In this document: positions 22,953-46,898 of the stretch, piece by piece | How the letters are laid out: each line of letters begins with the position of its first letter | Numbering within the stretch: position 1 is the stretch's first letter | Source of the DNA: Actinomycetota bacterium | Lineage (GTDB): Bacteria > Actinomycetota > Thermoleophilia > Miltoncostaeales > Miltoncostaeaceae | Direction of reading: 5' to 3' | Length of the DNA: 59,163 nucleotides | NCBI GenBank assembly: GCA_963169235.1 | Contig: CAUJCX010000022.1 | Coordinates: forward strand, 1 to 59,163 | Notes under the pieces: generated by a model | The model's database searches: none | Told to the model about the DNA's origin: nothing | Seen by the model: only the letters and a program-made list of their open reading frames with translations | Position numbers and translations under genes: made by a program

Positions 22953-23051
22953 GGAATTCCGCCTGTCCAGTGTTTCACTGATCCCGCGGCGCCCGAGGAC
23001 GTGTTGAGGCGGGACGAGGGGAAGTCCACCGCGGCAACCCGATGCGCACCA

Positions 23052-23065
23052 GTTACGCGCATAAC
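23052..23065 (+). promoter_or_regulatory. Island palindrome 1 (GTTACGCGCATAAC)
   Basis: Perfect GTTA-N6-TAAC dyad in the divergent region between the cytochrome c fusion gene and the secreted operon, 60 bases before the ATG at 23126. One of five related sites confined to the island. Confidence 0.55.
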
Positions 23066-24190: not shown

Positions 24191-24194
24191 GACG

Positions 24195-24704: not shown

Positions 24705-25714
24705 GGCGTGTGGAGCGCGGCCGGCGCGTACCGGTGGCACGTGCGATCGCGCTGGCCGTGGCCGCCTCAGCCCTCGGCGCGTCGGGCGCGGTGGCGCTCG
24801 GCGGGAGCGCGTTCAACGCGCGCCTGGGTGGCGGAGGTGCGACCGCCGGGATGGCGCAGTGTTTTGCAACGCCGAGCGGAGGGGTCACATGCGAACCGGC
24901 GCTCCCTCCCGCCGGGCGCTGTTCGGTACGCGGGATGCCTGGCCAGGCCTTCCGGGGTATCGCGCTCGGGGCTACGGGCCGCGCGCGCGGCGTGCGCACG
25001 TGCTACATCGAACGCGACGGCGGCGGCATCCCCACCCTGCGCGGGGGTGAGACGTGGGCGTACCGGGGATCGCCCGGCGTGACGTGCCGCAGCCTGCGCC
25101 GGGGGGGCGGCACGGCTGCCCCGCTCGTTGTCACGTGCCGCAACCGCACGAGATACGGGTTCACCATCAGCGCACCGGGCCGCATGGTGCCGTTCACCCC
25201 GCCCGCGAAGAAGCACTCCACCGCGCGCTCGGCCGTCGCCCCCGAGAACCTGGTTCCCAGCAACACCCCCGAGGCCCGGTTCGGCCGGTTCACGCAGGAC
25301 GGAGGGCCCGACGCGCCCCACCTCATCCGGGCGTTCGGCCCACCCGACGTGGTCCGTGAGACCGAGAGCGGCTGCTTCATGCGGTGGCGCGCCATCGGGG
25401 CGACGGTGAGCCTCACGACGTTCGGAAACGGGACGTCGGCATGCCAGGAGGGGACGTTCATCCAGGCATGGCTCAACGGCCCGCAGTGGCGTACCCAGTT
25501 CGGGGTCGGGCCCGGCGTCTCCGCCCACGCGGCGGCGCGCCGCGCCCTTCGCCCGTGCCGGAAATCGTGGGAATGCGGCGGGCCGGGACGCCGCGGCTAC
25601 GTGTATCGCACCGACCGGTCTGACTGCGGAGCGGGACGCTCTGTGACGCTGGCAGGCGAGGTGCGGAAAGGGCGCGTCGTCGCGCTCGTCGTGATGTGGC
25701 ACGGATGCGAGTAG
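24701..25714 (+). CDS. Exported Cys-rich protein of unknown function
   Basis: 337 residues, not recognised. Basic N-terminus followed by hydrophobic ARAIALAVAASALGASGAVAL, a signal peptide or anchor. The mature part has about ten cysteines (for example MAQCFATPSGGVTCEP, TCRSLRRGGG, VTCRNRTRYGF), suggesting disulfides. GTG at 24701 overlaps the DUF805 stop (GTGA), so it is co-translated. Middle of the island secreted operon. Confidence 0.82.
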   Translation: MRRVERGRRVPVARAIALAVAASALGASGAVALGGSAFNARLGGGGATAGMAQCFATPSGGVTCEPALPPAGRCSVRGMPGQAFRGIALGATGRARGVRTCYIERDGGGIPTLRGGETWAYRGSPGVTCRSLRRGGGTAAPLVVTCRNRTRYGFTISAPGRMVPFTPPAKKHSTARSAVAPENLVPSNTPEARFGRFTQDGGPDAPHLIRAFGPPDVVRETESGCFMRWRAIGATVSLTTFGNGTSACQEGTFIQAWLNGPQWRTQFGVGPGVSAHAAARRALRPCRKSWECGGPGRRGYVYRTDRSDCGAGRSVTLAGEVRKGRVVALVVMWHGCE

Positions 25715-25780
25715 GCACGTGAACCCCACATGCACCCACGCGATCCTCGCACCAAGCTGGTGCGACCTCAGGAGGAAGTA

Positions 25781-27547
25781 ATGAAGGTGCACCAGATGGT
25801 TTCCGGACACGGTCGATCCCGCCGCGGTCGACCGCCCTGCCCACGCGCCGCTCGCGCGTACGGCACGGTGACGGCCCTGTTGCTGGCTCCCCTCGCCGGC
25901 AGCGCTTGGACGGCCACGGCCGCGCCCGCGCCCGCGGGCGTGATCACCCGCCAAGCACAGATCTCGCAGGACCTCGCTCAGTGGTGTGGGCAAGGGGCGG
26001 AAAACCTGGTGGTCGTGTTCACGGTGCGCGGGTCGGGCCAGCCCCCAGGGGGATGGGGCAACGACCGCTCCGACAACACGCTCAACGGGGTCTACTTTGG
26101 CGAGCTCTCGACAGCCCTCGCGGCGAAGGGCTACCGCGTCTATGGACGCGAAGCGGACTACATGGCCGCCAGCGTCGACTACGTCACGAAGTCCTACCAA
26201 CTGGGCACTTTCATCCGTTCGGCGCTAGATAGGCGGCGTGACATCGGTGCGGCCATCGGCGACATCAACGCCCGGTGCCCCCGGGCATCCGTGGTGCTCG
26301 CCGCCTATTCCCAGGGTGGCATCGCGTTGCGGGCAGCGCTGCCGTTCGTCCCCTCGAGCGCCATCAACCGCGTGGTCGCCGTCGACCTCTTCGCGGACGC
26401 GTCCGCCAACGCCAGGCAGGACGCGGGGATGCCCACCGGGCGCACCCGACGCTCGTACGTGTGGCGACGCAGAACGTTCGGCCTGTATAGCGTCGGCCAA
26501 GCGGCGAGGGATGCGGAGATAAGGGCCCAGCTGGGCCCCGGCGGGGCTGCTGCGGTGCGGCTCTTCGCCGGGGGACCCAAGGCGAGCAACCCGTACCTGA
26601 TCTCGCTGGCGGCGTACCCCGCGACCCTGCGCCCACGTGTGGATCAATACTGCCACGACGAGGACCCCGTGTGCGACCCCACCGCGTTCGCCCAGCACTG
26701 GGTCGGGCGCTGGGGCTACATTCCTTTCGGCGGTTCCGGAGCCCCGGCCTCGTACGCAGCATGGAAGGTCGGATTGCACAGCGCGTACCCGTGGCGCTAC
26801 GCCGCTGCGGACACCGGCGACGGTTTTGCGGCGGTACCCCGGTCCGCAGCTGCACCGGCACCCGCCGCGCCGGCGCCCACGAGCGCGCCCGCCTCCCCGG
26901 CCGCAGCGCCTCCCGCGCCAGTCGCGCCTCCGCCCGCGCCTGAGCCGCCGGCGCCCGCCGGCCCCTCGTGGACGCAGGTCACCGGGGGTGTCACCAACAC
27001 GTGGACGAACTACGTGAACGCCGGGGGCACCCACGGCGGGACGATCCCCGGCCAGACGGCCGTGCAGATCGCCTGCAAGGTGACCGGATTCCGCGTGGCC
27101 GACGGCAACACCTGGTGGTACCGCATCGCGTCACCGCCGTGGAACGGCCAGTTCTACGCGTCGGCCGACGCGTTCTACAACAACGGGGCCACATCGGGGA
27201 GCCTTGCGGGTACCCCGTTCATGGACCCGGCGGTGCCGGACTGCGCGGGTTCCGGAGGCCCGGGTGGCGTCGCCGAGACCACCGGTGGATGGTCGAACAC
27301 GTGGACGAACTACACCAACGCCGGGGGCACGCAGGGACCGTCCATCCCCGGGCAGGCGACGGTGACGATCGCCTGCAAGCTGCAGGGCTTCCGGGTGGCC
27401 GACGGCAACACCTGGTGGTACCGCATCGCGTCGCCACCGTGGAACGGCCAGTTCTACGCCTCGGCGGACGGCTTCTACACCAACGGCGCGACGTCCGGCG
27501 GCCTCCATGGCACGCCGTTCGTCGACGGCGCCGTGCCGGACTGTTGA
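25781..27547 (+). CDS. Cutinase-like secreted serine hydrolase with two WWYR modules
   Basis: 588 residues. Signal sequence at about 20-50 (VTALLLAPLAGSAWTATAAPA). Alpha/beta-hydrolase domain of cutinase type: nucleophile in VVLAAYSQGGIAL, acid in the disulfide loop YCHDEDPVCD, and His in GLHSAYPWRY. After a Pro/Ala linker, two about 90-residue modules (about 397-488 and 501-588) contain TNTWTNYVNAGGT, FRVADGNTWWYRIASPPW and NGQFYASADAFY. Likely an esterase acting on lipids or polyesters at the envelope, docked by the modules. ATG at 25781 has GGAGG. Paralogue of 38376-40046. Confidence 0.87.
   Translation: MKVHQMVSGHGRSRRGRPPCPRAARAYGTVTALLLAPLAGSAWTATAAPAPAGVITRQAQISQDLAQWCGQGAENLVVVFTVRGSGQPPGGWGNDRSDNTLNGVYFGELSTALAAKGYRVYGREADYMAASVDYVTKSYQLGTFIRSALDRRRDIGAAIGDINARCPRASVVLAAYSQGGIALRAALPFVPSSAINRVVAVDLFADASANARQDAGMPTGRTRRSYVWRRRTFGLYSVGQAARDAEIRAQLGPGGAAAVRLFAGGPKASNPYLISLAAYPATLRPRVDQYCHDEDPVCDPTAFAQHWVGRWGYIPFGGSGAPASYAAWKVGLHSAYPWRYAAADTGDGFAAVPRSAAAPAPAAPAPTSAPASPAAAPPAPVAPPPAPEPPAPAGPSWTQVTGGVTNTWTNYVNAGGTHGGTIPGQTAVQIACKVTGFRVADGNTWWYRIASPPWNGQFYASADAFYNNGATSGSLAGTPFMDPAVPDCAGSGGPGGVAETTGGWSNTWTNYTNAGGTQGPSIPGQATVTIACKLQGFRVADGNTWWYRIASPPWNGQFYASADGFYTNGATSGGLHGTPFVDGAVPDC
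26968..27543 (+). repeat. Tandem coding repeat (two WWYR modules)
   Basis: Two roughly 265-275-base units encode near-identical modules at the end of the cutinase-like gene. The same module, very similar at DNA level, ends the M23 peptidase gene at 40084-40357 (other strand), so recent duplication or recombination between island genes is likely. Confidence 0.8.
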
Positions 27548-27548
27548 G

Positions 27549-27624
27549 CCCCTGATGCCGCCTCGTCGACCCCGCCAAGCGGGCTGGGGGCTCCGCCTTC
27601 GTCCGCGTTCCGCCCCATCAGGGG
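27549..27624 (+). other. Long-range RNA stem between island genes
   Basis: CCCCTGATG (27549-27557) is exactly complementary to CATCAGGGG (27616-27624), closing a 58-base GC-rich loop that holds a further CCCGC/GCGGG hairpin. It lies just after the cutinase-like gene and just before the next gene, so it may be a terminator, processing site or RNA control element. Confidence 0.45.
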
Positions 27625-27650
27625 TACCTCGACCCATGGGAGGTAGCATC

Positions 27651-28370
27651 GTGAGCACGCCAGTGTGCGGTCTGAGAGGGCCTCGTCGCCCGGGTCGGCT
27701 GGTGCACTTGCTGGCCCTGGCGGCGGGTGCTGCCGTGGTCCTTCCCCCGGCGGCCGTGTCGGCTCCACGGATCTGGTGCTCCGAGACCGGTGATTCGTGC
27801 ACCACGATCGCCATGACGCGTAGCGCCGTCGTCGTCACCGAGAGCTACGCCGCCACCATGGAGGGGCCACGCAACGTATGCGTCACCAGCCCCTCGGGGA
27901 GGCGGTGCATCGACGTCGCCTCCCGCCCGAGGAACGGCGCCACGGTGTGGACGGCCGTCTTCCGTAGTCCACAGCAGGGGTTCTGGCTCACCGGGCCGCG
28001 GGAGGCGCCGCTGGGAGTCTGGGCGGGGCGCATGAAGCGCGGGGCGGGCCCCGGCGTCACGAACGTCGGCGGCGGGTTGGCCGGATCTGGTGATCGCCTG
28101 TGGGCGAGCGCGCGGATCTGCAACAGCACGGGGGCGGCGCGGCGGTATTACGCCGAGTTCCGGGGCTACGCATCGAAGTCCGTACCGTCCGGGTTGGTCA
28201 CGCGGGTGTTCCGCGTCGGCGCGCATCGCTGCATCAGGCCGTCGATGATTGAGGTCCCTGACTGGACGGGCCGGAACTACCGGACCAGTCGGAGCTTCGT
28301 CACGGTCCTGGTACGCGACACCGCAAACGGGCGGGCCACCGTGCGTACGGGCCGGCTGTGGGGCGCGTAG
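27651..28370 (+). CDS. Secreted protein of unknown function
   Basis: 239 residues, not recognised. Signal peptide 1-36 (LVHLLALAAGAAVVLPPAAVSA). The mature part is beta-rich with several cysteines (RIWCSETGDSCTT, RNVCVTSPSGRRC) and many Arg. GTG at 27651 chosen because GGAGG lies eight bases upstream; an in-frame ATG at 27636 overlaps that site. Same strand as the preceding island operon but separated by a structured 100-base gap. Confidence 0.8.
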   Translation: MSTPVCGLRGPRRPGRLVHLLALAAGAAVVLPPAAVSAPRIWCSETGDSCTTIAMTRSAVVVTESYAATMEGPRNVCVTSPSGRRCIDVASRPRNGATVWTAVFRSPQQGFWLTGPREAPLGVWAGRMKRGAGPGVTNVGGGLAGSGDRLWASARICNSTGAARRYYAEFRGYASKSVPSGLVTRVFRVGAHRCIRPSMIEVPDWTGRNYRTSRSFVTVLVRDTANGRATVRTGRLWGA

Positions 28371-28399: not shown

Positions 28400-28413
28400 G
28401 GTATGCGCATAAC
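28400..28413 (+). promoter_or_regulatory. Island palindrome 2 (GGTATGCGCATAAC)
   Basis: One mismatch from GTTA-N6-TAAC, with a perfectly palindromic TGCGCA core. 35 bases before the ATG at 28449. Directly preceded by a C7G6 run. Confidence 0.5.
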
Positions 28414-28448
28414 TCGCCATGAGTGTGACGCACCGTGACAGTACCGTC

Positions 28449-30350
28449 ATGACTTCACGCACCCACCTGACCACCACCTTGACGGTCTGCGCCCTCGCGG
28501 GAGCGACGTGTCTCGTGGCGGCGGCCCCGGCGGCGGCCGCCACGAAATCGCGGTCTCCGTTCGTCTCGGCGTTCGCCGTGCAGCGGGGAACGCTGACGGC
28601 CTCGGGCCACCTGCCCGTCGCAGCCCGTGGCGTGAACATCCTGGTGCAGCGTCGCGTCGGACGTCGCCTTATACCGCTGCGCCAGAGCAGGCCGTCCCGG
28701 CGGAGCTATTCGCTGTCCGTCCGGGTGCCGCGGGCGTGGAAGACGGTCACCCTGCGCACCGTGGTGGTGACCCGCGGCCGCAAGAGCCGCGTGGTGGCGA
28801 CCGGCCCGTGGCGTACGTTGCGCGTGCAGGGCCTTCCGCCCGCTATGCGCATCGCGCCGGTCGCGTCGGCCAAGATCGCTTCGGCCCCGGCGCCTGGCCA
28901 AGCCGGTGCGCTGGTGGTGCGCGGTGCAGTGAGCGCCCGCCCGGGCCAGGCGATCGCCCTGGGCATCACGCCCGCTACCCCCGAAGGCCTCCTCGCCAGG
29001 GTCACGGCCGTCGCCCGCTCCGGCGACACCACGACGCTCACGGTGGAGCCCGCCACGCTGCCCGACGTGATCCCCGTGGGATCGTTCGATGTCACGTCTC
29101 CCGACCCGGCCTCCGCGTCGATGAGCGAGAAGGCGGCAGGCACCGTGCCGCGCAACCTCATCGGCCAAATGGGCACGAACGCGTCGTGCACCACCGGTGA
29201 GAAGCTGACGGCTGAGGCCTCCGCAGGTATCTCCGCGGGCATCAAGATGTCGGCCTCGTGGAGCCCGTGGAACGGGACGAAGGCGGAGTTCACTGCTTCA
29301 GCGACGGCGGAAGCGCACGTCAACATGAGCGTCTCGGGCCAGGCCGAGTGCACGCTGGACGCCGTCGCGGTGTTCCCCGCGCCGATCCCGCTGCCATCCG
29401 TCGCGTTCTCGGTCGGCCCGATCCCCGTGGTCATCACGCCCAAGGCCCAGGTGTACGTGTGGGGCAGCGCCAGCGCGCAGGCATCGGCCAGTGCCGGCGC
29501 GGACGCCGCATTCACCGTGTCCGCCGGGGCCCGCTACGACGACGGCAGGTTCAGCTCGAGCGGAGGCGCCACGCCCAGCATCACCGCCCGGCCGCCGAGC
29601 GCACAGGGCAGCGCGCTGGTACTTGCCCACGTCGGCCCGGTCGTCGACTTCCACATCAACGGCATCGCGGGGCCGCGCGTCGATGTGGACGCGGGCCTGA
29701 AGCTCGCGGCAGACACCCAGGCCAACCCGTGGTGGAAGCTCACGGCCCCCGTGTCTGCGGGTGCGCAGCTGAGGATGGCGGTGTGGAAGCTGAGCGTGGA
29801 GTCCCCCCGTTTCACGATCTGGTCGACGGAGCCTCAGCTGGCCGCCGCGGGAGGACCGTTCGCCGCGCCGGCTCCGGCGCCCGCGCCCACCCCGGCCCCC
29901 ACGCCGACGCCGACGCCCACGCCCACGCCTGCCGGGCCCACGAGCCGCGCCCTGCTCACGTGGGACAACGACGCGGACGTCGACCTCCACATCTGGGACG
30001 AGATCGGCAACCACGCCTACTTCGGCGACCAGGAGGCGATCCCGTCGGGCGAGCTGATCGAGGACGTCATCCCCGGCTTCGGCCCCGAGGAGTTCCGGCA
30101 GTTCACCGGTGCGTCCGGCCACACCTACACCTACGGCGTGTGCGTGTTCGATGGCTCCTACCCCAACGTGACGCTCAAGATCATCGATCCGGACGGCCGG
30201 GAGCGCGTCCTGACGGACCTCATGGGTAACAGAAAGTCGGCCTGGCTGGTGGACAGCAGCCCGACGGGCGTGGGCTACGTCCCGGCCCCGGACTGGTGCG
30301 ACCACTCCGGCGGCGACCCCACCGAGTTCGGGACGGAGCAGTTCAACTAG
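28449..30350 (+). CDS. Secreted protein with C-terminal DUF2135/YfaP-like domain
   Basis: 633 residues with ATG at 28449; ATG 28419 is possible and neither has a clear ribosome site. Signal peptide around residues 8-33 (VCALAGATCLVAAAPAAAA). N-terminal beta domain, a large Ala/Ser-rich middle part (about 240-450, GISAGIKMSASW, SASAQASASAGADAAF), an APAPTPTP linker, and a C-terminal domain beginning LTWDNDADVDLHIWDEIGN that resembles proteins with DVDLHV-type, possibly metal-binding, beta domains. Surface role inferred; function unknown. Own palindrome suggests an independent unit of the island. Confidence 0.82.
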   Translation: MTSRTHLTTTLTVCALAGATCLVAAAPAAAATKSRSPFVSAFAVQRGTLTASGHLPVAARGVNILVQRRVGRRLIPLRQSRPSRRSYSLSVRVPRAWKTVTLRTVVVTRGRKSRVVATGPWRTLRVQGLPPAMRIAPVASAKIASAPAPGQAGALVVRGAVSARPGQAIALGITPATPEGLLARVTAVARSGDTTTLTVEPATLPDVIPVGSFDVTSPDPASASMSEKAAGTVPRNLIGQMGTNASCTTGEKLTAEASAGISAGIKMSASWSPWNGTKAEFTASATAEAHVNMSVSGQAECTLDAVAVFPAPIPLPSVAFSVGPIPVVITPKAQVYVWGSASAQASASAGADAAFTVSAGARYDDGRFSSSGGATPSITARPPSAQGSALVLAHVGPVVDFHINGIAGPRVDVDAGLKLAADTQANPWWKLTAPVSAGAQLRMAVWKLSVESPRFTIWSTEPQLAAAGGPFAAPAPAPAPTPAPTPTPTPTPTPAGPTSRALLTWDNDADVDLHIWDEIGNHAYFGDQEAIPSGELIEDVIPGFGPEEFRQFTGASGHTYTYGVCVFDGSYPNVTLKIIDPDGRERVLTDLMGNRKSAWLVDSSPTGVGYVPAPDWCDHSGGDPTEFGTEQFN

Positions 30351-30651
30351 CGCACGAGGCCACCGGCGGATCGCCGCGCGACGCAAAAGTCTCCTGTCGT
30401 CGTGACAGACACCTCTGTGCAATCCGCGAAACATAGGGCGGCGTGGCGCCGCGGGTCGCCTGGGCCCACATGCCCAGCGCCGGAGGACCGATGGCCCTGC
30501 TGACTCCGGGGAACCGCGACTGCGTCGGCGACGCACGCGGTTACAGGGATAACGTGCGCCCCCCGGCAGCCGGTGGTCTCATGGAAATGCAGCCGACCCG
30601 CGTGCATCGCACGTTGTGGCGGAGGGCCGTCCCACCACCAGGAGTCGCACG
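30351..30651 (+). other. 301-base leader region of the lipoprotein gene
   Basis: No gene I can support. It carries palindrome 3 at 30540-30553 and ends in AGGAG before the lipoprotein ATG. The first part is AT-richer than the surrounding DNA (about 30385-30435). Confidence 0.4.
30540..30553 (+). promoter_or_regulatory. Island palindrome 3 (GTTACAGGGATAAC)
   Basis: Perfect GTTA-N6-TAAC dyad, 98 bases upstream of the lipoprotein ATG at 30652, followed by GTGC as in palindrome 1. Confidence 0.5.
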
Positions 30652-31578
30652 ATGCCCGCCATGTTTGCCGTCCGTAACCGACGAGCAGCACCACTCATCG
30701 CTTTGGTCGTGACCGGGGTGGTGGGCACTGCTCTCGCCGGTTGCGCCAGTCCGGCCGCGACGAACCAGGTCAAGGCGACCGAGGCGGCAGAAGCGACCGA
30801 TTCGGCAGCGTACGTCAAACGAGTCCGCCCCGTGGTGGTACGCCTGGGTACGTCGGCGTCCACCCTCAGCGGACGGCTGCTGGCGACGTCGTCCAAGCGC
30901 GACCTCCCGCGCCTCCACGCCGCCGCGCTCTCGCAGCTCGCCAACGTGAACGAGGTGGCGGCCGCACTTCCCGACCTGGAGGCCCCGGAAAGCCAGACCC
31001 GGTCGCAGCGAGCCTTGGTGCTGGCGGTTCAGAGCCACCGTGACTACCTCTCGGCGCTCGCGCGGGCGACCAACGGCACCCGCGGCCTTGCGCAGCTCGG
31101 CACCGTCCGGGCGAGGGCGGCTCGCTCGGTGCGCCGCTACCGCACCTTCTTCGCATTGGCACCCCGGGGGCTGCCGGATGGCATCACGTCAGCCGGCTTG
31201 GACCGGTTGGACGGGCTCCACGCGGCCTTGAAGGATGCAGCGATCCCGCCGCCCGTCCGCACCACCACCGTCACCACGGCCGTCGTGGTGCCGACCCCAC
31301 CTCCGGCCGCCGCTGCCCCCGCCCGAGGCTCGCTGGTCGACTACGTCGCCAACTCCGGGGGCGAAGGCGTGCGGTACCGCTTCTCGCCGACGCTCGGGCA
31401 CCTGGTGCCGGGCAACGGACCGTTTGAGGGGAACGCCGTCACGGTGTCGTGTTTCACCACGGGTGAGACCGTGCGGGGTAACCCGTGGTGGGCCCGACTC
31501 GCCAACGGCTATTACGTGCCGACGACGTACCTCCGGTACAGCTCGAGCGGTATCCCTGGCGACGCCGCGTACTGCTGA
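30652..31578 (+). CDS. Lipoprotein with C-terminal SH3-like module
   Basis: 308 residues. Lipoprotein signal: basic start, VVTGVVGTALAGCAS with lipobox LAGC and Cys near residue 31. Middle region (about 40-190) is helical and Arg/Ala-rich. A Thr/Val/Pro linker leads to a C-terminal module with GETVRGNPWWARLANGYYVP and final Cys, a distant relative of the WWYR modules of the cutinase-like and M23 proteins. Strong AGGAG site before ATG 30652. Stop overlaps the next start (TGATG), so it is coupled to the serine hydrolase gene. Confidence 0.83.
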   Translation: MPAMFAVRNRRAAPLIALVVTGVVGTALAGCASPAATNQVKATEAAEATDSAAYVKRVRPVVVRLGTSASTLSGRLLATSSKRDLPRLHAAALSQLANVNEVAAALPDLEAPESQTRSQRALVLAVQSHRDYLSALARATNGTRGLAQLGTVRARAARSVRRYRTFFALAPRGLPDGITSAGLDRLDGLHAALKDAAIPPPVRTTTVTTAVVVPTPPPAAAAPARGSLVDYVANSGGEGVRYRFSPTLGHLVPGNGPFEGNAVTVSCFTTGETVRGNPWWARLANGYYVPTTYLRYSSSGIPGDAAYC

Positions 31579-32672
31579 TGCTCCGCTGGTGTGCCGCCGC
31601 TGCCGCCATGGCGGTGGCGGCCGTTGCTCCCGCTGCGGCGGCAACTCCGACGCCAGCGCAGTTCGCGGTACAGCGGATCGTTACTCAAAGCCCCGCGCTG
31701 GTGGGGGTGAGCGCCCAGTGCGCGTCCGGTCGCCCGGTGGGCGCGGGGGACCGGCGCAGGATCCGCGCCGCCAGCACGCTCAAACTCGGAATCGCCTTGG
31801 CCGCCGTACGGGCCGACCCCGCCGTGGTGACCAGCCCCGCGATGCGCGCCATGCTCTCGGAGTCGAGCAACACAGCGGCCAACAACCTGATCGCCCTCGC
31901 TGGAGGTGGCTCCACGAGCGCCGGGACGCAGCGCGTCAACAGCCTTTTCGCCCTTCTCGGGATGACGGACACCGTGCTCGACGGCCCGTACCGCGACGGG
32001 CCCGGACCTTCGGGCAAGTTCACGTCCGCCCGCGATCTGCGGTTGTTGGCGGCCGCAGTGGCGGTGCTCGACCGTGACGACAAGGGCGTCCTCGCCGAGT
32101 GGGGCATCACTCGCCGCCAGGCCAGGGCGATGCTCTCGTACATGGAGCGCGGAACCCACACGAGTCTCCTGGCCGGAACGCCTGGCGCCATCGCACACAA
32201 GTCCGGCTGGCTCACGGAGGTCGAGAACGACCTCGTGATCATCCGCGGGGTCGCGGGTGCGCCGTGCGTTGTCGGGATCGTGACGGAACACGTGGGTGTG
32301 GCAGGAGCTCAGGGCGTGGGACGCCGCGTGGGCAGGGAAGTGCTGCCGAAGCTCATCGCGGGGCAACAGGTCAACCAGTCTGCGGCGGCCGCTCCCCCGA
32401 CCCCGCTCGCCCAGCCTCGCTCCACGCTCACCTCGCCACCCGTGCCCGCATCCGCCGCCCGTCCCCGAAAGGCCGTCGTCGAGACCCGCCAGGGGGAGGG
32501 TGCGCCCCGGCCCACGCACGATGGTGCTGGCGCGTCGCACGGATGGTGGCGGACCCTGGCCTGGACAGCGGCGCTGGCCGGTCTGGGTGTGCTGGCACTG
32601 CGCCAGTTGCAGGTGAGTCTTCGCCACCGCCGCCGGCTGCAACGCCAACGCGCCCGTCGCGGCGCGCCCTGA
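31578..32672 (+). CDS. Beta-lactamase-fold serine hydrolase, membrane anchored
   Basis: 364 residues. Signal peptide (MLRWCAAAAAMAVAAVAPAAAA). Class A beta-lactamase/DD-peptidase motifs: SxxK as STLK near residue 72, SxN in SSNTAANNL, and KSG in AHKSGWL. The ExxLN loop needed for fast deacylation in true class A lactamases is not seen, so a peptidoglycan endopeptidase/carboxypeptidase role is more likely than antibiotic hydrolysis. A Pro/Ala linker, a membrane helix (TLAWTAALAGLGVLAL) and a basic Arg tail close the protein. Coupled to the lipoprotein gene. Confidence 0.85.
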   Translation: MLRWCAAAAAMAVAAVAPAAAATPTPAQFAVQRIVTQSPALVGVSAQCASGRPVGAGDRRRIRAASTLKLGIALAAVRADPAVVTSPAMRAMLSESSNTAANNLIALAGGGSTSAGTQRVNSLFALLGMTDTVLDGPYRDGPGPSGKFTSARDLRLLAAAVAVLDRDDKGVLAEWGITRRQARAMLSYMERGTHTSLLAGTPGAIAHKSGWLTEVENDLVIIRGVAGAPCVVGIVTEHVGVAGAQGVGRRVGREVLPKLIAGQQVNQSAAAAPPTPLAQPRSTLTSPPVPASAARPRKAVVETRQGEGAPRPTHDGAGASHGWWRTLAWTAALAGLGVLALRQLQVSLRHRRRLQRQRARRGAP

Positions 32673-33470: not shown

Positions 33471-35426
33471 CTACCGCCGGGGACGCAGGTAGCCGAGTAG
33501 GTTCCCCTTCGAGATGCTCTGGGTGTGCGCGTACGCGCCGCCCCAGTTCTGGTGGAAGACGTCGAGCGTGGAGCCCCGGTCCGCAAGCACGATGGCCACG
33601 TGGCCGGCGCCGTAGGACCCCGGCAGGTCGCTGGAGTACACTGCGACGTCGCCCTTCTGGGCGGCCGCGCCCGGCGACACCTTGTCGTAGTTGCTGTTGA
33701 TCGGGCCGAGGTCGTTGCGCGTCCAGAGCTGGTAGGCGTACGGCGTCCACGGGATCGCGCCGATGCCCAGCGTGTCGCGGTGATAGAAGTTGAACAGGTC
33801 GACGCACTGGGCGCCGTAGACGCCGTCGAAGTCCACGGCCCTCCCGTTGTACGCCGACACGAAAGCGTCGACGCGCGACCCGCCGCCGCCTCCACCGCCC
33901 TGGATGCGACCCGTCTGCGACGACCACGTCGGGCCGGACGCGATGTAGACCACCAGGTTGCCGTCGTCCTGCATCAGCAGGACGGGGTTCTCTCCGGTGG
34001 TCCCCGAGTCCCACAGCGCAGGTCCCGCGTAAATGACGAGGTTGCCGTCGCTCTGCATGTAGACGCTCGCTCCGGCGTGCCCGACGGTGCCGGAGTCCCA
34101 CTGCGCGGCACCACCCGACCGGTAGACCACGAAGTTGCCGTCACCTTGCATCTCGGCGGAGTAGCCACCATTCGGTGATACCAGATGCGTCCCCGGCCCC
34201 AGGTGGGAGTTCACACCCAGCATGTAGCCGACGTATCCGGTTCGGATCGACCAGATCGTGCGGCCTTGGCCCGTGAGCACGAGGTTGCCGTCGTCCAGAA
34301 GGCGCAACGATGCCCCCGGGAACCCGGCGGGACCGCTCGCCCACCGCGTCGCGCCCCCTTGGATGACGCTCATGGTGCCGTTTCGGCCCGGGCTCACGAC
34401 GAACTCCGCATTCGCCCCCGACGTGTTGGTCGTCCACACCGTGGAGCCCCCGTCCGACAGGACGACGTTGCCGGAGGCGAGCATCTCGAAGCGGTGGCGC
34501 CCGTTGGGGCTGCGCAGGTTGTCCCCTGGGTAGAGGCGCTGCCCCTCCTCCATGCGGTCGCCCACGAAGCCGCGCCGGGTGCCCCAGACGTCGTGGCCCT
34601 TCTGCGTCAGGACGACCTCGCCGACCGGGGTGAGGCCCAGCGCCGCGCCGGGGAAACCGGTCGTTCCCGAGCGCCACGTGACGGAAGCGCCGCTACGGAG
34701 CACCAGCTCGCCGTCCGCGCGCATCTCCGCCGCCGCGTCCGGTCCGCCACCCCCGCTTGTCCACACCGTGCGGGAGCCGGACATGACGGCAAGCTGGCCG
34801 TCCCCGGTGATCTGGAGCGTCATGTCCGTCGACGGCTCGAGGACCTTGTCACCAGGCAGAAGGGTCTGCCCGGACAGGAGCACCCCGGAGGGATAGACGA
34901 CGGGGGTTCGCGGTGCGGGCGGGGGCGTTGAGCTGGGTACCTCTGTCGCGCTGCTCGTCGCCGGGCCCACCGTCCCGCTGGCAGGTGCAGAGGCCGCAGG
35001 CGGGCGGGCCGGGGTCACCACGACAGGGCTCGGGGTGGCCACCGGCGCGGTGCGACTCGTCCGGGGGATCACAAACGACGCGCGCAGAACCCGCACCCTC
35101 CCGCCGATGGAACAGCGAGCGACCACGCGCACACGCATACCGGGGCGCGCCGCGCGCACCCCGACGGTGACGGCGGACCCTCCGCGCGGGCTGATCCGGA
35201 CCCCGAACGGGCGCCTCCGGCCTGCGCCGTCGATGACCTGGACCGCGCAGCGTACGCGGGCGGGACCCGTCACCGCGATCAGGCCTCGGCTCGGGCCCTC
35301 CGCCTGCGCCGTGACGGACACGGCGGCGCGACTTGCGGCGTCCGCGGCCGAGACTGCGGTGGCTGCGCCGCACAGAGCGAGCGACGCAGCGGTGACGCTG
35401 GAGAACGCGCGGGGGCGACGGCTCAT
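33471..35426 (-). CDS. Secreted lectin-repeat protein with C-terminal CHAP domain
   Basis: 651 residues. Signal peptide 1-28. A beta domain, Pro/Ala/Ser linker (about 125-175), then three or so bulb-type mannose-lectin (B-lectin) repeats (about 180-510) with many DGNLV/GDGNFVVY-type motifs such as MQSDGNLVIYAG and LLDDGNLVLTGQG. A Gly run leads to a CHAP domain: catalytic Cys in YGAQCVDLFNFY, His in GAGHVAIVLADRG. Likely a carbohydrate-docked peptidoglycan amidase or endopeptidase. ATG at 35426. Palindrome 4 lies about 110 bases upstream. Confidence 0.9.
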   Translation of the reverse strand: MSRRPRAFSSVTAASLALCGAATAVSAADAASRAAVSVTAQAEGPSRGLIAVTGPARVRCAVQVIDGAGRRRPFGVRISPRGGSAVTVGVRAARPGMRVRVVARCSIGGRVRVLRASFVIPRTSRTAPVATPSPVVVTPARPPAASAPASGTVGPATSSATEVPSSTPPPAPRTPVVYPSGVLLSGQTLLPGDKVLEPSTDMTLQITGDGQLAVMSGSRTVWTSGGGGPDAAAEMRADGELVLRSGASVTWRSGTTGFPGAALGLTPVGEVVLTQKGHDVWGTRRGFVGDRMEEGQRLYPGDNLRSPNGRHRFEMLASGNVVLSDGGSTVWTTNTSGANAEFVVSPGRNGTMSVIQGGATRWASGPAGFPGASLRLLDDGNLVLTGQGRTIWSIRTGYVGYMLGVNSHLGPGTHLVSPNGGYSAEMQGDGNFVVYRSGGAAQWDSGTVGHAGASVYMQSDGNLVIYAGPALWDSGTTGENPVLLMQDDGNLVVYIASGPTWSSQTGRIQGGGGGGGSRVDAFVSAYNGRAVDFDGVYGAQCVDLFNFYHRDTLGIGAIPWTPYAYQLWTRNDLGPINSNYDKVSPGAAAQKGDVAVYSSDLPGSYGAGHVAIVLADRGSTLDVFHQNWGGAYAHTQSISKGNLLGYLRPRR

Positions 35427-35534
35427 CGCAGGCTCCTACGAGGGGGGATCGGCAAAGACGTGCGCGAGGGTGGGAGGTCGGCCTGGTCGGCCGCCTTCCG
35501 GTGCAGTGCACCATCGCACCAGGCCTTCCGCAAC

Positions 35535-35548
35535 GTAATGTACGTAAC
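35535..35548 (-). promoter_or_regulatory. Island palindrome 4 (GTTACGTACATTAC on minus strand)
   Basis: One mismatch from GTTA-N6-TAAC; core CGTACA. 108 bases before the ATG of the lectin/CHAP gene and oriented with it. Lies in the 196-base gap 35427-35622 between two minus-strand genes, where I see no other gene. Confidence 0.5.
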
Positions 35549-35622: not shown

Positions 35623-37659
35623 TCACCCCTCCGGCGAGGGAGAGGGAGGTCCCAGCCGCGTCAGAACCTGGTTGAGGTCGGTCCGCAGACGGTCGAGCTG
35701 CCGCCGCAACGCGATCATGTCGGGCGTGTGCCCCTCATCCTTGGCCACGCGGGACGACGTCAGAAGTGCCGCTCCCACGTATTGGCGCAGGGTGTGGTGA
35801 AGCTGCGCTTGCGCGATGGCCGCGGCGCGCAGGTGCTCGTGGACCCGCAGCGCCTCCACCTCTGCCTCGACGGTGTCCTCGTAGACGTCGAGCGTGTCCT
35901 GCGAGCGTGCGAACACCCACGTCATCCCGCTGGCGATGGCAAGTACCACCAGGTAGGCACACACGTTGAAGGCCCAGTCGATGGGCATCGTTTGCACCAG
36001 CGTGCCGTGGTCGTCCACCGGCAGCGTCGTCATCATCCAGTAGCCGAAGAGCAGGGCACCGGAGAGCATCGCCACCAGCGCCGCGCCGGCCTTCCAGCCT
36101 TTGAAGTGCGCGAGCGTCAGGATGCACCCCATCGACACGGGGATCCACGGGCACGACATGCCGCCCTGGAAGGCAACGCACACCACCAAGAGACCGCTGT
36201 CCCACCACGCGACATCGGGGTGGCGATAGACGAACGGCCGCAAGCGCTGCCACCACACGAAACCCACGAAGTTGATCGCCACGAGCACGAATGACGTGGC
36301 GATCAGCATCGGGAGGATGGTGCGGTGCTCGCCGGCCTTGATCGGGATCATCACGGCGGTCAGTACCGCGAAGGCCAATCGCACGAACAGCAGCGCCCGC
36401 TCGTACGAGACGAAGCGCGCCGTGAAACGCGCGCGCGCACCCTCGACGCGCCGCGCCTCGTCGCCCGCGTCACGCACGGGTACGACGACCCGCACCCGGT
36501 GCATGCCGTCCTCGTGCGTACGGTCGAGTTCCACCCCCGCAGCCTTCGCATCGGCCTCCATGGCGCTCAGTCCCAGGCTGCCCCAGCGACGCGACGATGG
36601 CGCATCCGACGGGTTGGCCACCTCCACGTGCACCGTCCCTTCGTCGTCGGTGGTCGTGATGACCTCCGCGGTGCCCGGCCCGTGCTTGCGCGCGTTGTTG
36701 AGCGCCTCGGTCAGCACGCGCTCGAGGGCCTCGTGATCGACGCCCGAGAGCGGGGCGTCGTCCTGCGACCGCACCACCACGTCTCCCCCCAGGGCGGCAC
36801 TGGCATCCGCGGCCCGCGTGATGACCTCGTCCACCGACCGCTCGGGCACGGCCGCGCCCACCGTGCCCAGCGAACGCAGTGACTCCCTGATACGCGCCAG
36901 AGTGTGCACGAGCGCTTGACGACGCTGCGACGGCTCCTCGCCCGGAGGCACCGGGGGGACCGTGAGGCCGTCCAGGTGCACGCGCAGGCCCCTCGCCACG
37001 TCGACATTGATCTCGTGCACCTCACGGTCGCGGGCAACTGAGGCGCGTGTGGCGACCAGGTCGCCCCGAACGTTCTTCTCGGCTGCGATCAGGCCGTCGA
37101 TGTCGTTGACGACGCGCCGCACGGACGACACCAGGAAGAACCCTGTGGCGGCCAAGAGCGACGGCGCCAATGGCGTGATGGGGGTGTCTGCGATCACCGC
37201 GGGAGCGATTCGGTCGACCAGCATGCTGCCCCACAGCGCCATGGCCAAGCCCAGGGTCGCGATGCCGCCCGACCGTAGGCCGAGGAAGTACGTGATGAAC
37301 GCGATCGGCACGTATGCGTGCAGAACGTGCCACGATTGGCTGCCCAGGCCGAGGAACGCCAGCACCGCGAACACCGCCATCTCGGTGATGGGGATCCACG
37401 GGCGCGCAGCAACCCATTTCAGATGCGACCACGACAGCAGCATGGACAAACCCGTCCAGACCGCGAGAACCGCCCACACCACCATCGTGACCGTGCGGAC
37501 CTCGTCGAGGTCCTGGGCCACCAGCAGGGTGAGCAGCGCGACGACGGGAAACGCGAAGCGCGCGATCAGGGTCGCGTGGAACAGCCGCACCTCGAACGAC
37601 CGCACCCGTCCCTCGAGGACCCAGGCCGGCGTTACCGTCTCGGAGCCGCGAGCGGGCAC
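35623..37659 (-). CDS. Membrane sensor histidine kinase with a second membrane/DHp-like half
   Basis: 678 residues. First half: five or six membrane helices (about 30-180), a dimerisation coil with His in REVHEINVDVARGLRVHLDG, and a HATPase_c domain (about 305-395: N-box EALNNARKHG, G-box WGSLGLSAME), typical of NarL-partner kinases. Second half: another membrane domain (about 420-585), then a coil with QAQLHHTLRQYVGAALL that looks like a second phospho-acceptor helix, but no second ATPase domain. GTG start at 37659. Divergent from the response regulator gene with 48 bases between. Probably senses an envelope cue for the island. Confidence 0.85.
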   Translation of the reverse strand: MPARGSETVTPAWVLEGRVRSFEVRLFHATLIARFAFPVVALLTLLVAQDLDEVRTVTMVVWAVLAVWTGLSMLLSWSHLKWVAARPWIPITEMAVFAVLAFLGLGSQSWHVLHAYVPIAFITYFLGLRSGGIATLGLAMALWGSMLVDRIAPAVIADTPITPLAPSLLAATGFFLVSSVRRVVNDIDGLIAAEKNVRGDLVATRASVARDREVHEINVDVARGLRVHLDGLTVPPVPPGEEPSQRRQALVHTLARIRESLRSLGTVGAAVPERSVDEVITRAADASAALGGDVVVRSQDDAPLSGVDHEALERVLTEALNNARKHGPGTAEVITTTDDEGTVHVEVANPSDAPSSRRWGSLGLSAMEADAKAAGVELDRTHEDGMHRVRVVVPVRDAGDEARRVEGARARFTARFVSYERALLFVRLAFAVLTAVMIPIKAGEHRTILPMLIATSFVLVAINFVGFVWWQRLRPFVYRHPDVAWWDSGLLVVCVAFQGGMSCPWIPVSMGCILTLAHFKGWKAGAALVAMLSGALLFGYWMMTTLPVDDHGTLVQTMPIDWAFNVCAYLVVLAIASGMTWVFARSQDTLDVYEDTVEAEVEALRVHEHLRAAAIAQAQLHHTLRQYVGAALLTSSRVAKDEGHTPDMIALRRQLDRLRTDLNQVLTRLGPPSPSPEG

Positions 37660-37707
37660 TATGGTATGGCCGACTGCAGTGAGGGATTGTCGAGGAGGAT
37701 CCCCCGG

Positions 37708-38352
37708 GTGATCTCCGTGCTCGTCGTGGAGGACCAGTTCGAGTGGGCGGACAGCGTCCGCTTCGAGGTGGCCTGCCAGAAGGGGATGAAGGCGGTCGGA
37801 TCGGCGCTCACGGTGCGCGAGGCGCTGGACATCTGCAGCGCGCAGCGCGTGGACGTAGCCGTCGTCGACCTGGTGCTCCAGGGCGAGTACGGCCTCGACT
37901 TCCTGCGGACCGCCTCACAGCGATACCCCTCCACGGCAGTGGTGATGATGTCGGCGCAGCCCACTCCCTGGGCTGTCGAGGAGGCCCGCACGTGCGGCGC
38001 GGTCGGGTTCATCGACAAGAAGGACATGGAGTCGGCGGAGGGCATCGCCCGCATCATCAGCCGCGTCGCCAACGGCGAGGCCGTGTTCACTCCCGGCGTC
38101 AGCGGCGAGTTCGGCCAGTCGCTGGCGCAGGCGTACGGCCTGAGCCAGAAACACCGGGAGATCCTCCGCTGCCTACGGCGCGGCATGGTGGTGGAGGAGA
38201 TCGCCGACCACCTGAACATCGTGCCTCAGACCGTGCGCAACTACATCTCGGCGATCGCCCGTGCCGCCGGCGTGCCGGGCAACCAGGTGAAGGTGCTCGC
38301 GTGGTACCTCGATGAACTCGAGTCGGGGCGCTTCCCCGACGAAACCGCGTAG
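37708..38352 (+). CDS. NarL/LuxR-type response regulator
   Basis: 214 residues. Receiver domain 1-120: acidic pocket VVEDQFEW, phospho-Asp in VVDLVLQGEYG, MMSA (Thr/Ser switch) and IDKKD (conserved Lys). LuxR-type HTH at the C-terminus: GLSQKHREILRCLRRGMVVEEI then QTVRNYISAIARAAGV. GTG at 37708 after GAGGAGG. The only dedicated DNA-binding protein inside the island, so the best candidate to bind the five palindromes; dimeric sites fit this family. Confidence 0.9.
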   Translation: MISVLVVEDQFEWADSVRFEVACQKGMKAVGSALTVREALDICSAQRVDVAVVDLVLQGEYGLDFLRTASQRYPSTAVVMMSAQPTPWAVEEARTCGAVGFIDKKDMESAEGIARIISRVANGEAVFTPGVSGEFGQSLAQAYGLSQKHREILRCLRRGMVVEEIADHLNIVPQTVRNYISAIARAAGVPGNQVKVLAWYLDELESGRFPDETA

Positions 38353-38375: not shown

Positions 38376-40046
38376 TCACCTCGGCACCCGGGGCAGACGG
38401 ATGCGGGCGATCACCTGCGGGCGGGCCGCCACCGTCTGGATGACGACGGTGCCCGCAGCCGCGAGGCGACGTAGGCGCAGCGTGACGGTGGCCGTGGCGC
38501 CTGTGGTGATCGTCCGCGCGACCCGCCTCCCCTGTGTCACCGTGACCCGGTAGCCCCGTGCGTTGCCGAGCGGGCTCCACGTCACGACGAGGCGCCCGCG
38601 CACCCACCGCGCCGACGCCGCCGCACGGGTAGGCGTCGAGGGGGTCGCCACCGGCTGCGGGGGGCCCGCCGACGGCCCAGGGAGCGCAGCCGCGGCCGCA
38701 ACGGCCGCAGGTGGCGGGGGTGCCGCCGCGGGGGTAGCGATCGGCGTGACGATGGGGGCGCGCCCCGGCGGCACGAGCGGGACAGGGGCGTCCACGGGAC
38801 CGATCGGAAGGGTGTCGTCGCCGCAGCGGGCCCATACCCCGTGGCGATCGGGGAGGCGGTCGAGCGTGGCGGCGGGTAGAACCGCCGGACCCGCACCCAG
38901 CCGCATCAGGCAGTGGTACGTCGCGGCATCGGGGATCCACATGCGCGTCAGGTCCGGGGCCACCAGCCAGGAGGTGCGCGGGTTCGCCGTATCCCCGCCC
39001 CACTGCACGAGGCTCCAGCGGTAGCTCGCGACCTCGTACGGCGCCGGCTCGGGCGGCGCGCCGAACGCGTCCGCCGTATCGAGGGCGATGTAGCGCAGGG
39101 GGTAGGCGCCGTGCAGGCTGGTCCCGAGGCCCCACTGCGCCTTCACGGCGCCCGAGTCCCACGACAGCAGGCTCAGCGACGCCGCGCCGGCGAGGGCCCG
39201 GGTGAATGCGCCACTGTCGCAGACCAGGTCGCCGTCGTGACAGTACTGGTCGATACGGGGCCGCAACCACGCCGGGTAGACGGGTGCGTCCTGCACGCCG
39301 CTGATGCCGTCGAGCCCGTAGAGCTTGCGGGCGGCAAGCGAAACGGGATCCCGGCCATTGCGAAGCTTCACCGCGACCCACCAGATGCCCTGGGTGGAGC
39401 GGCGCCACACGTACGAGCGCGTGGTGCGGCCGCGGGGCATGCCGTCGTCGCCCTCGGCCCACGCCGACGCGTCGGCGATGAGGTCGATGTTCTCCACCCG
39501 CACCAGGTACTGGGGCTCCAGCAGCGCCACCGCGCTGCGTAGCGCGATGCCCCCTTGCGAGTACGCGGCGATCACGATGCGCGCGCTCGGGCACTGCACC
39601 GCCATGTTGCGGATCTGGGCGGCGATCGCCCGCCGGTAGGCGACGGCGCTGAGGATGAAGTCCTGCACCTGGCCGTCTTTGAGGGCGTCCACCGACAGCG
39701 CCGGGTAGCGCGCCTCCATGCCGTAAACGCGGTAGCCCTTGTCGCGCAGCGCCGTGCTGAGCGCCTCGAAGTACGCGCCGTTGAGCGAGTTGCCGCTGGT
39801 GACGTCGCCCCACCCGCCGTACGGCTGACCCGAGCCCCGCACCGTGAGCACCACCACGAGGTTGGTGGCGTCCTGGTGGCACGACGCGCGCATCTCGTCG
39901 AACGCCTCGGGAGTCTCGACCGGCGCGACGATGGCGGGCGCCGGGTTCTGCGGAATGGTGGCGGCAGCGCCCTGCATTGAGGTGCCTCCGGCCGCCAGGC
40001 AGGCGGCGAGCATTGCGCGCTTCCAGAGGACGCTGCGGGACATCAT
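38376..40046 (-). CDS. Cutinase-like secreted serine hydrolase with QW/DAATY module
   Basis: 556 residues. Signal peptide 1-29. Cutinase-type domain with nucleophile in IAAYSQGGIAL, acid loop YCHDGDLVCD and His in SLHGAYPLRY. A module at about 340-405 has LVQWGGD, MWIPDAATYHCL and LDRLPDRHG, shared with the M23 protein encoded just upstream. Pro/Ala linker, then a fibronectin-like C-terminal domain (RLVVTWSPLGNARGYRVTV). ATG at 40046 (or 40043) after AAGGA, 34 bases past the M23 stop, so both form an operon. Paralogue of the enzyme at 25781-27547. Confidence 0.87.
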   Translation of the reverse strand: MMSRSVLWKRAMLAACLAAGGTSMQGAAATIPQNPAPAIVAPVETPEAFDEMRASCHQDATNLVVVLTVRGSGQPYGGWGDVTSGNSLNGAYFEALSTALRDKGYRVYGMEARYPALSVDALKDGQVQDFILSAVAYRRAIAAQIRNMAVQCPSARIVIAAYSQGGIALRSAVALLEPQYLVRVENIDLIADASAWAEGDDGMPRGRTTRSYVWRRSTQGIWWVAVKLRNGRDPVSLAARKLYGLDGISGVQDAPVYPAWLRPRIDQYCHDGDLVCDSGAFTRALAGAASLSLLSWDSGAVKAQWGLGTSLHGAYPLRYIALDTADAFGAPPEPAPYEVASYRWSLVQWGGDTANPRTSWLVAPDLTRMWIPDAATYHCLMRLGAGPAVLPAATLDRLPDRHGVWARCGDDTLPIGPVDAPVPLVPPGRAPIVTPIATPAAAPPPPAAVAAAAALPGPSAGPPQPVATPSTPTRAAASARWVRGRLVVTWSPLGNARGYRVTVTQGRRVARTITTGATATVTLRLRRLAAAGTVVIQTVAARPQVIARIRLPRVPR

Positions 40047-40080
40047 CGGGATTCCTTCGAGGTCTGCGGTCCGGATCGGC

Positions 40081-41508
40081 TCAGCAATCGGCGACGGCAG
40101 CGTCGACGAACGGCGTGCCCCTCAGGGGCCCGGAGGTCTGGCCGTTGTTGTAGAAGGCGTCCGCCGACGCGTAGAACTGGCCGTTCCACGGGGCCTGCGC
40201 GATGCGATACCACCACGTGTTGCCGTCGGCCACCCGGAACCCTTGGAGCTTGCAGGCGATCTGCACGGTCGTGTTGGGGGGGATCGTCGCGCCCTGGGTA
40301 CCCCCGGCGTTGGTGTAGTTGGTCCACGTGTTGGTGTATCCACCTGTGGTCTGGCCCCACGTGGGGGGCGGGGTCGGCGTGGGCGTCGGCGTCGGCGTGG
40401 GCGTGGGCGTGGGTGTGGGAGCGGGCGGCGGCGCCGAGCTGGGAGCGGGGGCTGGCGTGATGACGGTGCTGTCGTCACAGAACACGCTGGCGCCGGTGAG
40501 GTCGGGAAGGCGGTCCAGCTCGCTCGCCGGCAGCACGTCGGGGCCCACGGCGCCCCGGGCCTTCAGACAGTTGTACGTCGCAGCGTCCTTGATCCACAGG
40601 CGCTGCAGCCACGGTGTCACCAGCCACGCCGTCTTCTGGGCCTTGGAGTCGCCGTCCCACTGGACGATGTGGCCCCGGTACCGGCTCAGGTCGGAGGCGC
40701 CGGGCGCGGGCACTGCAGCGGCCGGCGTCTGCGGAGCATTCGCCGATCGCAGCGTCGCGCCGGTGGGTGATGGCCCCTCCACGAACTGCCACGGCAGGGT
40801 CTGCTGTGTCACGCAGTTCATGCGTCCGTAGTGCAGGTGGGCGCCGTCGGACCTTCCCGTGTTACCCGAACGGCCGATCATCTCGTACTGGCGGATCTGC
40901 TGCCCCAGCGACACCCCGACCACGGAGAGGTGGGCATGCATCGCACACGTTCCGTCCGGGGCCTTCAGCAGAACGTAGTTGCCCCACCCTCCCCCACACT
41001 CCCGATGCGGGCCAGGGCCAGCGACGCACCCCGTGGAGACGCGGGCGACCACACCGGTGAAGCCCGCTCGCACCTCCGTCCCTGATGCCACCGGCAGGTC
41101 GACGGCGTCGCGCGTGGTGGCTCCGTTGTGCGAGTAGCGACTCCCGGGCCCCTGGCTCACCGTTACCGTGTAGCCCGTCGCCAGTGGCATGTACGTACTG
41201 AAGCCGACCGCGCCACCCGTTCCTTCCGGGAGGATGACCGTGTACGCGTTCGGGTTTCCCCGCCCGGGGGGCAGGCCTCGCCGCACCGGGATCGGCGCAC
41301 CGCGGCGGATCGCGCACACCTTCTTCGCCTTCCGGGCCGCACGACGGGCCGCGATGGTGTTGCACTGGGCCGGCTTGGCGACGCATTTCCGGGCCTTGCC
41401 GACGCACCCCGGTGCCGCCTGCGCGGACGTCGAGAGCGCCATCGCAGCCAGCGCCCCACCCGCAAGAAGACCACAGCGAGTGGCCCACCGAGACCCATGC
41501 TTGATCAT
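40081..41508 (-). CDS. Secreted M23-family peptidase with two C-terminal modules
   Basis: 475 residues. Signal peptide 1-31. LytM/M23 zinc peptidase: His127 and Asp in SHNGATTRDAVD, HAH at 191-193 (CAMHAHLS) and GAHLHY at 222-227; cleaves peptide cross-bridges of peptidoglycan. Two loop disulfides are likely. The QW/DAATY module (279-344: IVQWDGD, WIKDAATYNCL, LDRLPDLTG) is followed by a PTPT linker and one WWYR module (about 384-475, GNTWWYRIAQAPWNGQFYAS). ATG at 41508 after GGAGAG. Leads an operon with the second cutinase-like gene, under palindrome 5. Confidence 0.9.
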   Translation of the reverse strand: MIKHGSRWATRCGLLAGGALAAMALSTSAQAAPGCVGKARKCVAKPAQCNTIAARRAARKAKKVCAIRRGAPIPVRRGLPPGRGNPNAYTVILPEGTGGAVGFSTYMPLATGYTVTVSQGPGSRYSHNGATTRDAVDLPVASGTEVRAGFTGVVARVSTGCVAGPGPHRECGGGWGNYVLLKAPDGTCAMHAHLSVVGVSLGQQIRQYEMIGRSGNTGRSDGAHLHYGRMNCVTQQTLPWQFVEGPSPTGATLRSANAPQTPAAAVPAPGASDLSRYRGHIVQWDGDSKAQKTAWLVTPWLQRLWIKDAATYNCLKARGAVGPDVLPASELDRLPDLTGASVFCDDSTVITPAPAPSSAPPPAPTPTPTPTPTPTPTPTPPPTWGQTTGGYTNTWTNYTNAGGTQGATIPPNTTVQIACKLQGFRVADGNTWWYRIAQAPWNGQFYASADAFYNNGQTSGPLRGTPFVDAAVADC

Positions 41509-41617
41509 GGCTACTCTCCGTACCTGAATAGTGACGAAACGGTTCGTACAACATGTCGACACCGCACTATGGGTGCGGGGTCGCCGGAATCGTCCCAGTC
41601 GTGCCCTACCGGAGCTA

Positions 41618-41631
41618 GGTACGCACATAAC
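41618..41631 (+). promoter_or_regulatory. Island palindrome 5 (GGTACGCACATAAC)
   Basis: One mismatch from GTTA-N6-TAAC. 109 bases upstream of the M23 ATG (minus strand); its stronger half points away from the gene, acceptable for a palindromic site. The surrounding 41509-41764 shows no supportable gene. Confidence 0.5.
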
Positions 41632-46309: not shown

Positions 46310-46360
46310 GACGAGCTCGGGGGACGCCCCGGGTTTCCCCGTGACGTCCCCCGATGGAGG

Positions 46361-46729
46361 TGGACCCGGCCGGCACTGCCCCGGCGTCCGAAAGCGCTTA
46401 CGTGTCAGTTTCTCCGAGCGCAGTCGAAAGGATTGATCTCACACGGGGCGCCCCTTCCGACCCATCGCTCCCGTGCCAGGCTCTCCTGCGTTCTCGCCCG
46501 TCGATCGAGTGCCGTTACCGACGTGGCCAGGGTTACTGGGCTGACACCGGTGATCTCCCCCGCAACCCAAGGGAAGGCCGATGGCTCTCAGTGACTGCTA
46601 GTTAGGCAGCGAGAGCGAGCTTGGGAGAAGTCTCCGCAGCTACGTTGAATCCCGGTTTTTAACGCGGTCCTCCGGGTCCGCGGCTCGCTTACCGACACGC
46701 TCCCGCCCCGTCGAAACTGGATCGGGCCC
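46361..46729 (-). ncRNA. ssrA: Transfer-messenger RNA (tmRNA)
   Basis: Rescues stalled ribosomes with SmpB. Minus-strand RNA begins GGGCCCGATCCAGTTTCGAC, the family 5' signature; its GGGCCCG pairs with CGGGTCC at 46362-46368 to form a 7-bp acceptor stem with a G3-U pair as needed for alanine charging, followed by discriminator A (46361). A 5-bp T-stem GCCGG/CCGGC precedes it. The tag frame reads NVAAETSPKLALAA then TAA (stop at 46602-46604); the resume codon may lie one or two codons earlier (GF-). Length 369 is normal. The full CCA is not encoded. Confidence 0.93.
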
Positions 46730-46743: not shown

Positions 46744-46898
46744 GCAGCGTCCCGCCGCCGCGCCAGGGCGGGCACGGAGGGTCGGCTGAGCCTTAACCGA
46801 CGGTGCGTGATGCTTCAGGACGGCGCGAGTACGGCCGATGCAGTGACGAAAGGCACCGTTTCGGGCCTCACCCCTGCCCCGCTTTGACAAGGATGTCG

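Follow-up and report, generated by a model that had tools for sequence, protein, structure and literature searches.

The divergent gene pair and its setting

The locus described here raises the question of whether a histidine kinase and a response regulator, encoded back to back among genes for exported proteins, control those genes through a palindrome that recurs ahead of them. It lies in the window, i.e., the whole 59,163-nucleotide stretch of DNA that was analysed, which is one contig (C22, 72% GC) of a 2.94-Mb genome assembled in 65 contigs. At the centre of the locus are three features:

35623..37659, minus strand: histidine kinase gene (open reading frame), 678 aa, GTG start
37660..37707: divergent promoter gap between kinase and regulator genes, 48 bases, palindrome-free in sequence
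37708..38352, plus strand: NarL/FixJ-type response regulator gene, 214 aa, GTG start

An earlier note on this DNA had described a minus-strand kinase and a plus-strand regulator whose starts lie 48 bases apart, in the midst of effector operons. The coordinates and GTG starts agree with this description, and Pfam matches and translations place exported-enzyme genes on both sides of the pair, although we prefer the word exoenzyme to effector, as there is no sign of injection into a host. The neighbouring units are the following, export having been called by eye from signal-like N-termini:

21558..22954, minus strand: double-zinc-ribbon, cytochrome-c-like membrane protein, divergent from site 1 (Pfam DZR, FixO, Cytochrome_CBB3)
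23126..28370, plus strand: likely operon of five genes behind site 1 (Pfam, spacing)
28449..30350, plus strand: exported DUF7223 protein behind site 2 (Pfam, translation; start uncertain, 28419 or 28449)
30652..32672, plus strand: two-gene operon behind site 3, a lipoprotein-like exported protein with an SH3-like end, then a beta-lactamase-fold protein (gene start 31578)
33471..35426, minus strand: exported lectin-CHAP protein behind site 4 (B_lectin 48.2 bits, CHAP 29.5 bits)
38376..41508, minus strand: operon behind site 5, an M23 peptidase with an SH3-like domain, then a cutinase-like protein

The run behind site 1 opens with a Big_3_5 exported protein, a DUF2510-DUF805 membrane protein and an exported protein (24701-25714), and closes with a cutinase-like protein carrying SH3-like repeats (25781-27547) and a further exported protein (27651-28370). 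According to the coordinates, its genes are spaced by 4 bases or overlap, and then by 66 and 103 bases, a spacing from which the run is likely to be one operon; the cutinase-like gene at 25781 and the gene at 27651, which have no site of their own, would need read-through across the 66- and 103-base gaps. The lectin-CHAP protein also matches the NCBIfam model LLB_putidacin in four stretches at 127.9 bits, under the cut-off of 275, and this match to a putidacin-type lectin-like bacteriocin, joined to CHAP, suggests that the protein is possibly an antibacterial lectin-hydrolase. The minus-strand protein at 21558-22954 (ATG near 22952) fuses a double zinc ribbon and a cytochrome-c-like domain within one membrane protein, and a GH123-like (glycoside hydrolase 123) protein is encoded at 46803-49433 on the plus strand, outside the palindrome cluster.

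Five palindromes mark the exported-protein units

The earlier note had spoken of five palindromes without giving their coordinates. All five could be located as GTTA-N6-TAAC, one for each exported-protein transcription unit:

23052..23065, plus strand: palindrome 1, GTTACGCGCATAAC, between the divergent genes at 22952 (minus) and 23126 (plus)
28400..28413, plus strand: palindrome 2, GGTATGCGCATAAC, ahead of the DUF7223 protein gene
30540..30553, plus strand: palindrome 3, GTTACAGGGATAAC, ahead of the 30652-32672 operon
35535..35548, minus strand: palindrome 4, GTTACGTACATTAC, ahead of the lectin-CHAP gene
41618..41631, minus strand: palindrome 5, GTTATGTGCGTACC, ahead of the M23-cutinase operon
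46358..46729, minus strand: tmRNA gene (Rfam RF00023, 95.2 bits), within which a sixth match lies at 46532

With up to one mismatch allowed, the window holds these six matches against 1.03 expected, and none of 100 shuffles reaches six; the tmRNA was the sole match in an Rfam search of the window. We tested 3328 symmetric dyads (all 256 four-base arms with gaps of 0-12) against the five promoters, taken as the 150 bases ahead of the starts and mostly set before the motif was noticed; the DUF7223 start was shifted later, from 28419 to 28449, with site 2 within 150 bases of both. GTTA-N6-TAAC alone is present in five of five, with a probability of 5.9e-12 under base composition and of 7.8e-10 under window counts, values that are post hoc because the motif came from inspection of the same promoters, and that both remain below 1e-5 when multiplied by 3328. 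Moreover, matrices built from four sites ranked the held-out fifth at positions 1, 3, 5, 5 and 4 of 59150. Among the ten half-sites, the successive bases are G (10/10), T (8/10), T (9/10), A (10/10), C or T (10/10) and G (8/10), the rest being weaker, so that the GTTA arms are conserved, at a relative entropy of 1.5-2.9 per position, around a loose centre.

The exact motif occurs twice in the 2.94-Mb genome, both times in this cluster. At up to one mismatch there are 22 copies genome-wide against 31 for a reversed-pattern control; hence, the motif is not enriched in the genome, and only its clustering is unusual, with five copies in 18.6 kb where the 16 copies outside the window would lead one to expect 0.10 (Poisson 9e-8). 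Two of those 16 were read (C57:24762 and C15:88112); both cover the opening codons of genes and seem fortuitous. A search for exact dyads with arms of 4, 5 or 6 bases over 11 upstream regions revealed no pattern common to more than three of them. The sequence GGTGCANTGCACC at 35500 was also considered as a common palindrome and rejected, with 8 matches versus 5.83 expected.

The claim that the pair's own promoter lacks the palindrome is borne out by the matrix, which scores the five sites at 17.0-22.7 and reaches at most 1.75 across 220 bases around the gap. Having no site, the kinase and regulator genes are therefore not controlled through it.

The regulator is of the NarL/FixJ type

The regulator matches Pfam Response_reg at 57.9 bits (cut-off 30.2) and the GerE/LuxR helix-turn-helix at 34.6 bits (cut-off 23.5; profile positions 3-43 of 57). 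Its receiver keeps the acidic pair E8 and D9, the phospho-acceptor D54, which is invariant across four aligned regulators, S82 at the Ser/Thr position and K104. With a receiver and a C-terminal GerE domain, it is, by these domain matches, a clear NarL/FixJ-type regulator. Between 21.5 and 43 kb it is also the sole DNA-binding protein, and the sole one with a helix-turn-helix, that was found in the main genes; the whole genome has 15 GerE-domain matches. A paralogue in the same genome (L037:4060-4707, on contig C24) shares 34-35% identity and lacks the receiver acidic pair; it carries the same QTVRNYI stretch, with no kinase gene seen in its neighbourhood.

The earlier note had stated that NarL-family regulators bind dyads, and the published sites agree with this. 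NarL binds two 7-base elements 2 bp apart (7-2-7; PMC7419079), BldM a 16-bp palindrome, TCACcCgnncGgGTGA (PMC4125116), and OsdR a 16-nt palindrome, AGGGCCGATCGGCCCT (PMC5069765). By analogy, these dyads make the geometry of the palindromes possible for our regulator, without being diagnostic of it.

The kinase has an atypical, double architecture

The first half of the kinase comprises a membrane module (residues ~11-190), a helical region with H215-E216 (DHp1) and a CA/ATPase domain (276-393); its second half comprises another membrane module (~398-590) and a C-terminal helical hairpin with H621, and has no ATPase. This double architecture does not appear in the earlier note. In Pfam, HATPase_c alone matched, at 18.3-23.3 bits and under the cut-off of 26.4, and none of the DHp models did. 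Alignment with eight kinases of relatives puts H215-E216 where canonical kinases have their phosphoacceptor, and it marks N322 as an N-box residue and G363 as a G2-box residue; the core aligns with canonical kinases of relatives at 21-30%. The N and G boxes that characterise GHKL ATPases are thus represented by N322 and G363, with a degenerate G1 box (N349-P350), and the C-terminal helix carries LHHTLRQ (H621), which resembles an H box with its acid replaced.

An AlphaFold2 model computed from a 10-row alignment (mean pLDDT 70.5, pTM 0.57) consists of N-terminal membrane helices, a long helix (164-210), low-confidence helices (216-231 and 243-264), the ATPase (276-393), membrane helices from 398, a second long helix (559-642) and a last one (646-668). 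Foldseek returned 84 PDB matches at E<=0.001, and most of the 50 listed were histidine kinases, a few others being phytochromes or pyruvate dehydrogenase kinases. The protein is accordingly predicted to have a histidine-kinase core fold. The usual order of an N-terminal sensor and a C-terminal ATPase is not found, as about 280 residues follow the ATPase; this counts against calling it a typical member of its class, and not against its working like one.

The two membrane modules are suggestive of internal duplication, which their sequences do not support significantly: hhalign gave E 0.0042 with a probability of 8%, and the pairwise scores were matched by 85, 55, 13 and 55 of 300 block shuffles. 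We speculate, with considerable doubt, that the kinase may be a single-chain pseudo-dimer, in which the ATPase of the first half would serve both H215 in DHp1 and H621 in a second such region, DHp2, and two sensors would integrate two cues ahead of one exoenzyme switch. If functional, such a double architecture would be an added way to join two membrane inputs in one chain.

Comparison with relatives

Among the 398 other genomes of the class, a single relative of the whole kinase arrangement was found (genome G048), besides three short matches to the ATPase only. In the alignment, the G048 kinase has lost the DHp1 histidine and kept the equivalent of H621, so on the pseudo-dimer reading it would be a kinase with its ATPase and its acceptor in separate halves. 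It had no Pfam match at E<=0.05. It is flanked on each side by a different NarL-type regulator (L022 and L036), and no exoenzyme genes lie beside it. No close orthologue of our regulator was found in 60 relatives, the best match outside the genome reaching 71 bits. The strict motif, GTTAYGYRCRTAAC, has a single copy in each of five of the 399 class genomes, a count that takes in the genome of the window; G048 has none. The comparative test of the link between regulator and palindromes therefore failed.

In 40 kb of G048 (L061 and L062), TACGTAA/TTACGTA occurs just twice, and one regulator promoter next to the kinase contains both copies; seen post hoc, they are a weak lead. A further observation concerns the SH3-like domain that recurs in proteins of the cluster (window 26867-27544 and 40084-41514). 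A search of 41 genomes at E<=1e-10 found it in the window's own genome and in G048, which holds the sole related kinase found, and in no other; the G048 copy (C86:9724-9972) forms the end of a protein of ~2115 aa.

A proposed local exoenzyme regulon and its alternatives

The earlier note had inferred that the pair controls the five palindromes. This stands in part: the exclusive placement of the sites and the presence of a single local DNA-binding protein argue for it, and the comparative test did not bear it out. In our judgement the best reading, and a reasonably probable one, is a local exoenzyme regulon run by the kinase and regulator through the five palindromes, in which the binding of the regulator to the sites is guilt by association. 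The kinase would sense an extracytoplasmic or membrane cue, autophosphorylate on H215 with its own ATPase domain and hand the phosphate on to the regulator at D54. A dimer of the phosphorylated regulator would then bind the 14-bp palindrome GTTAYG-NN-CRTAAC and switch all five exported-protein units jointly from ~35-110 bp upstream, more likely as an activator. So read, pair and palindromes would form an ordinary local two-component regulon, whose unusual part is the kinase. It would be compact and testable, with one regulator, five near-identical sites and exported proteins encoded in all of the marked units, in a lineage known here from genome sequence alone.

The sites might instead be operators of a regulator encoded elsewhere, such as a TetR-, MarR- or ArsR-type repressor, with the pair controlling something else. 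Dyads of 14 bp are not peculiar to the NarL family, the genome has 15 GerE-domain matches, and a gene for an ArsR-like HTH_20 protein (19509-20222) lies ~3 kb from site 1; however, no second DNA-binding protein was found among the main genes at 21.5-43 kb, and all exact sites of the genome lie in this cluster, as would be expected of a local regulator. We consider this alternative rather unlikely, but serious. Much the same kind of proposal can be made for the redox regulator Rex, whose motif, as given in PMC5886521 (ATTGTTANNNNNNTAACAAT), includes the GTTA-N6-TAAC core common to our sites, and which is encoded in this genome (C35:181192-181815). Yet no copy of that core at up to one mismatch lies in the 6 kb around rex, its own promoter included, where there is instead a TTTGCGAC-N5-GTCACAAA dyad; none of the cluster's sites has the outer TTG/CAA of the Rex motif, the base after GTTA being C or T in every half-site, and the target genes differ, being exoenzymes and not respiratory genes. 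Because of the different dyad in its own promoter and the missing outer bases, we rate Rex as very improbable.

Just as improbable, in our view, is that the AT-rich dyad represents a sigma-factor promoter element and not a regulator site. In a window of 72% GC, TAAC might pass as part of a -10 element, and the right-hand flanks of the sites are somewhat polar; on the other hand, both arms are conserved and lie 4-6 bases apart, and -35 and -10 hexamers cannot stand so near to each other. The remaining alternative concerns the kinase, which may be degenerate and unable to autophosphorylate, so that the regulator would work by another input or without phosphate. The sub-threshold ATPase, the missing DHp match, the degenerate G1 box and the loss of the DHp1 histidine in G048 are in line with this, whereas the retention of H215-E216, N322 and G363, and of the phosphorylation residues of the regulator, speaks against it, and we regard it as unlikely.

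Likeness to known systems

The regulon proposed for the kinase and regulator resembles NarX-NarL and DevS-DevR, which pair a HisKA_3-type kinase with a NarL/FixJ regulator, in its receiver with GerE output, its kinase core and its dyad targets. It differs from them in the core of its sites, GTTAYG-NN-CRTAAC, and in a kinase that continues beyond the ATPase with another membrane module and another histidine-bearing helix. BldM and OsdR of Streptomyces are actinobacterial members of the NarL/FixJ family that bind 16-bp palindromes of other sequence; the former is an orphan developmental regulator and the latter a dormancy regulator. Against the reading proposed here, the arms bound by BldM and NarL stand one base farther from the centre than those of our palindrome. 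In the open-access literature, searches on two-component control of cutinase, CHAP and M23 genes, on tandem or pseudo-dimeric kinases, on NarL palindromes and exoenzymes in actinobacteria and on the motif itself brought up no account of such an arrangement; for the motif, the one paper returned was that on Rex. The two-component systems WalKR and GraSR are likewise reported to be linked with wall metabolism and with CHAP proteins. Regulators of the WalKR and GraSR type are OmpR-type and have dispersed regulons; unlike theirs, the proposed targets described here form a single 19-kb cluster that also contains the regulator gene.
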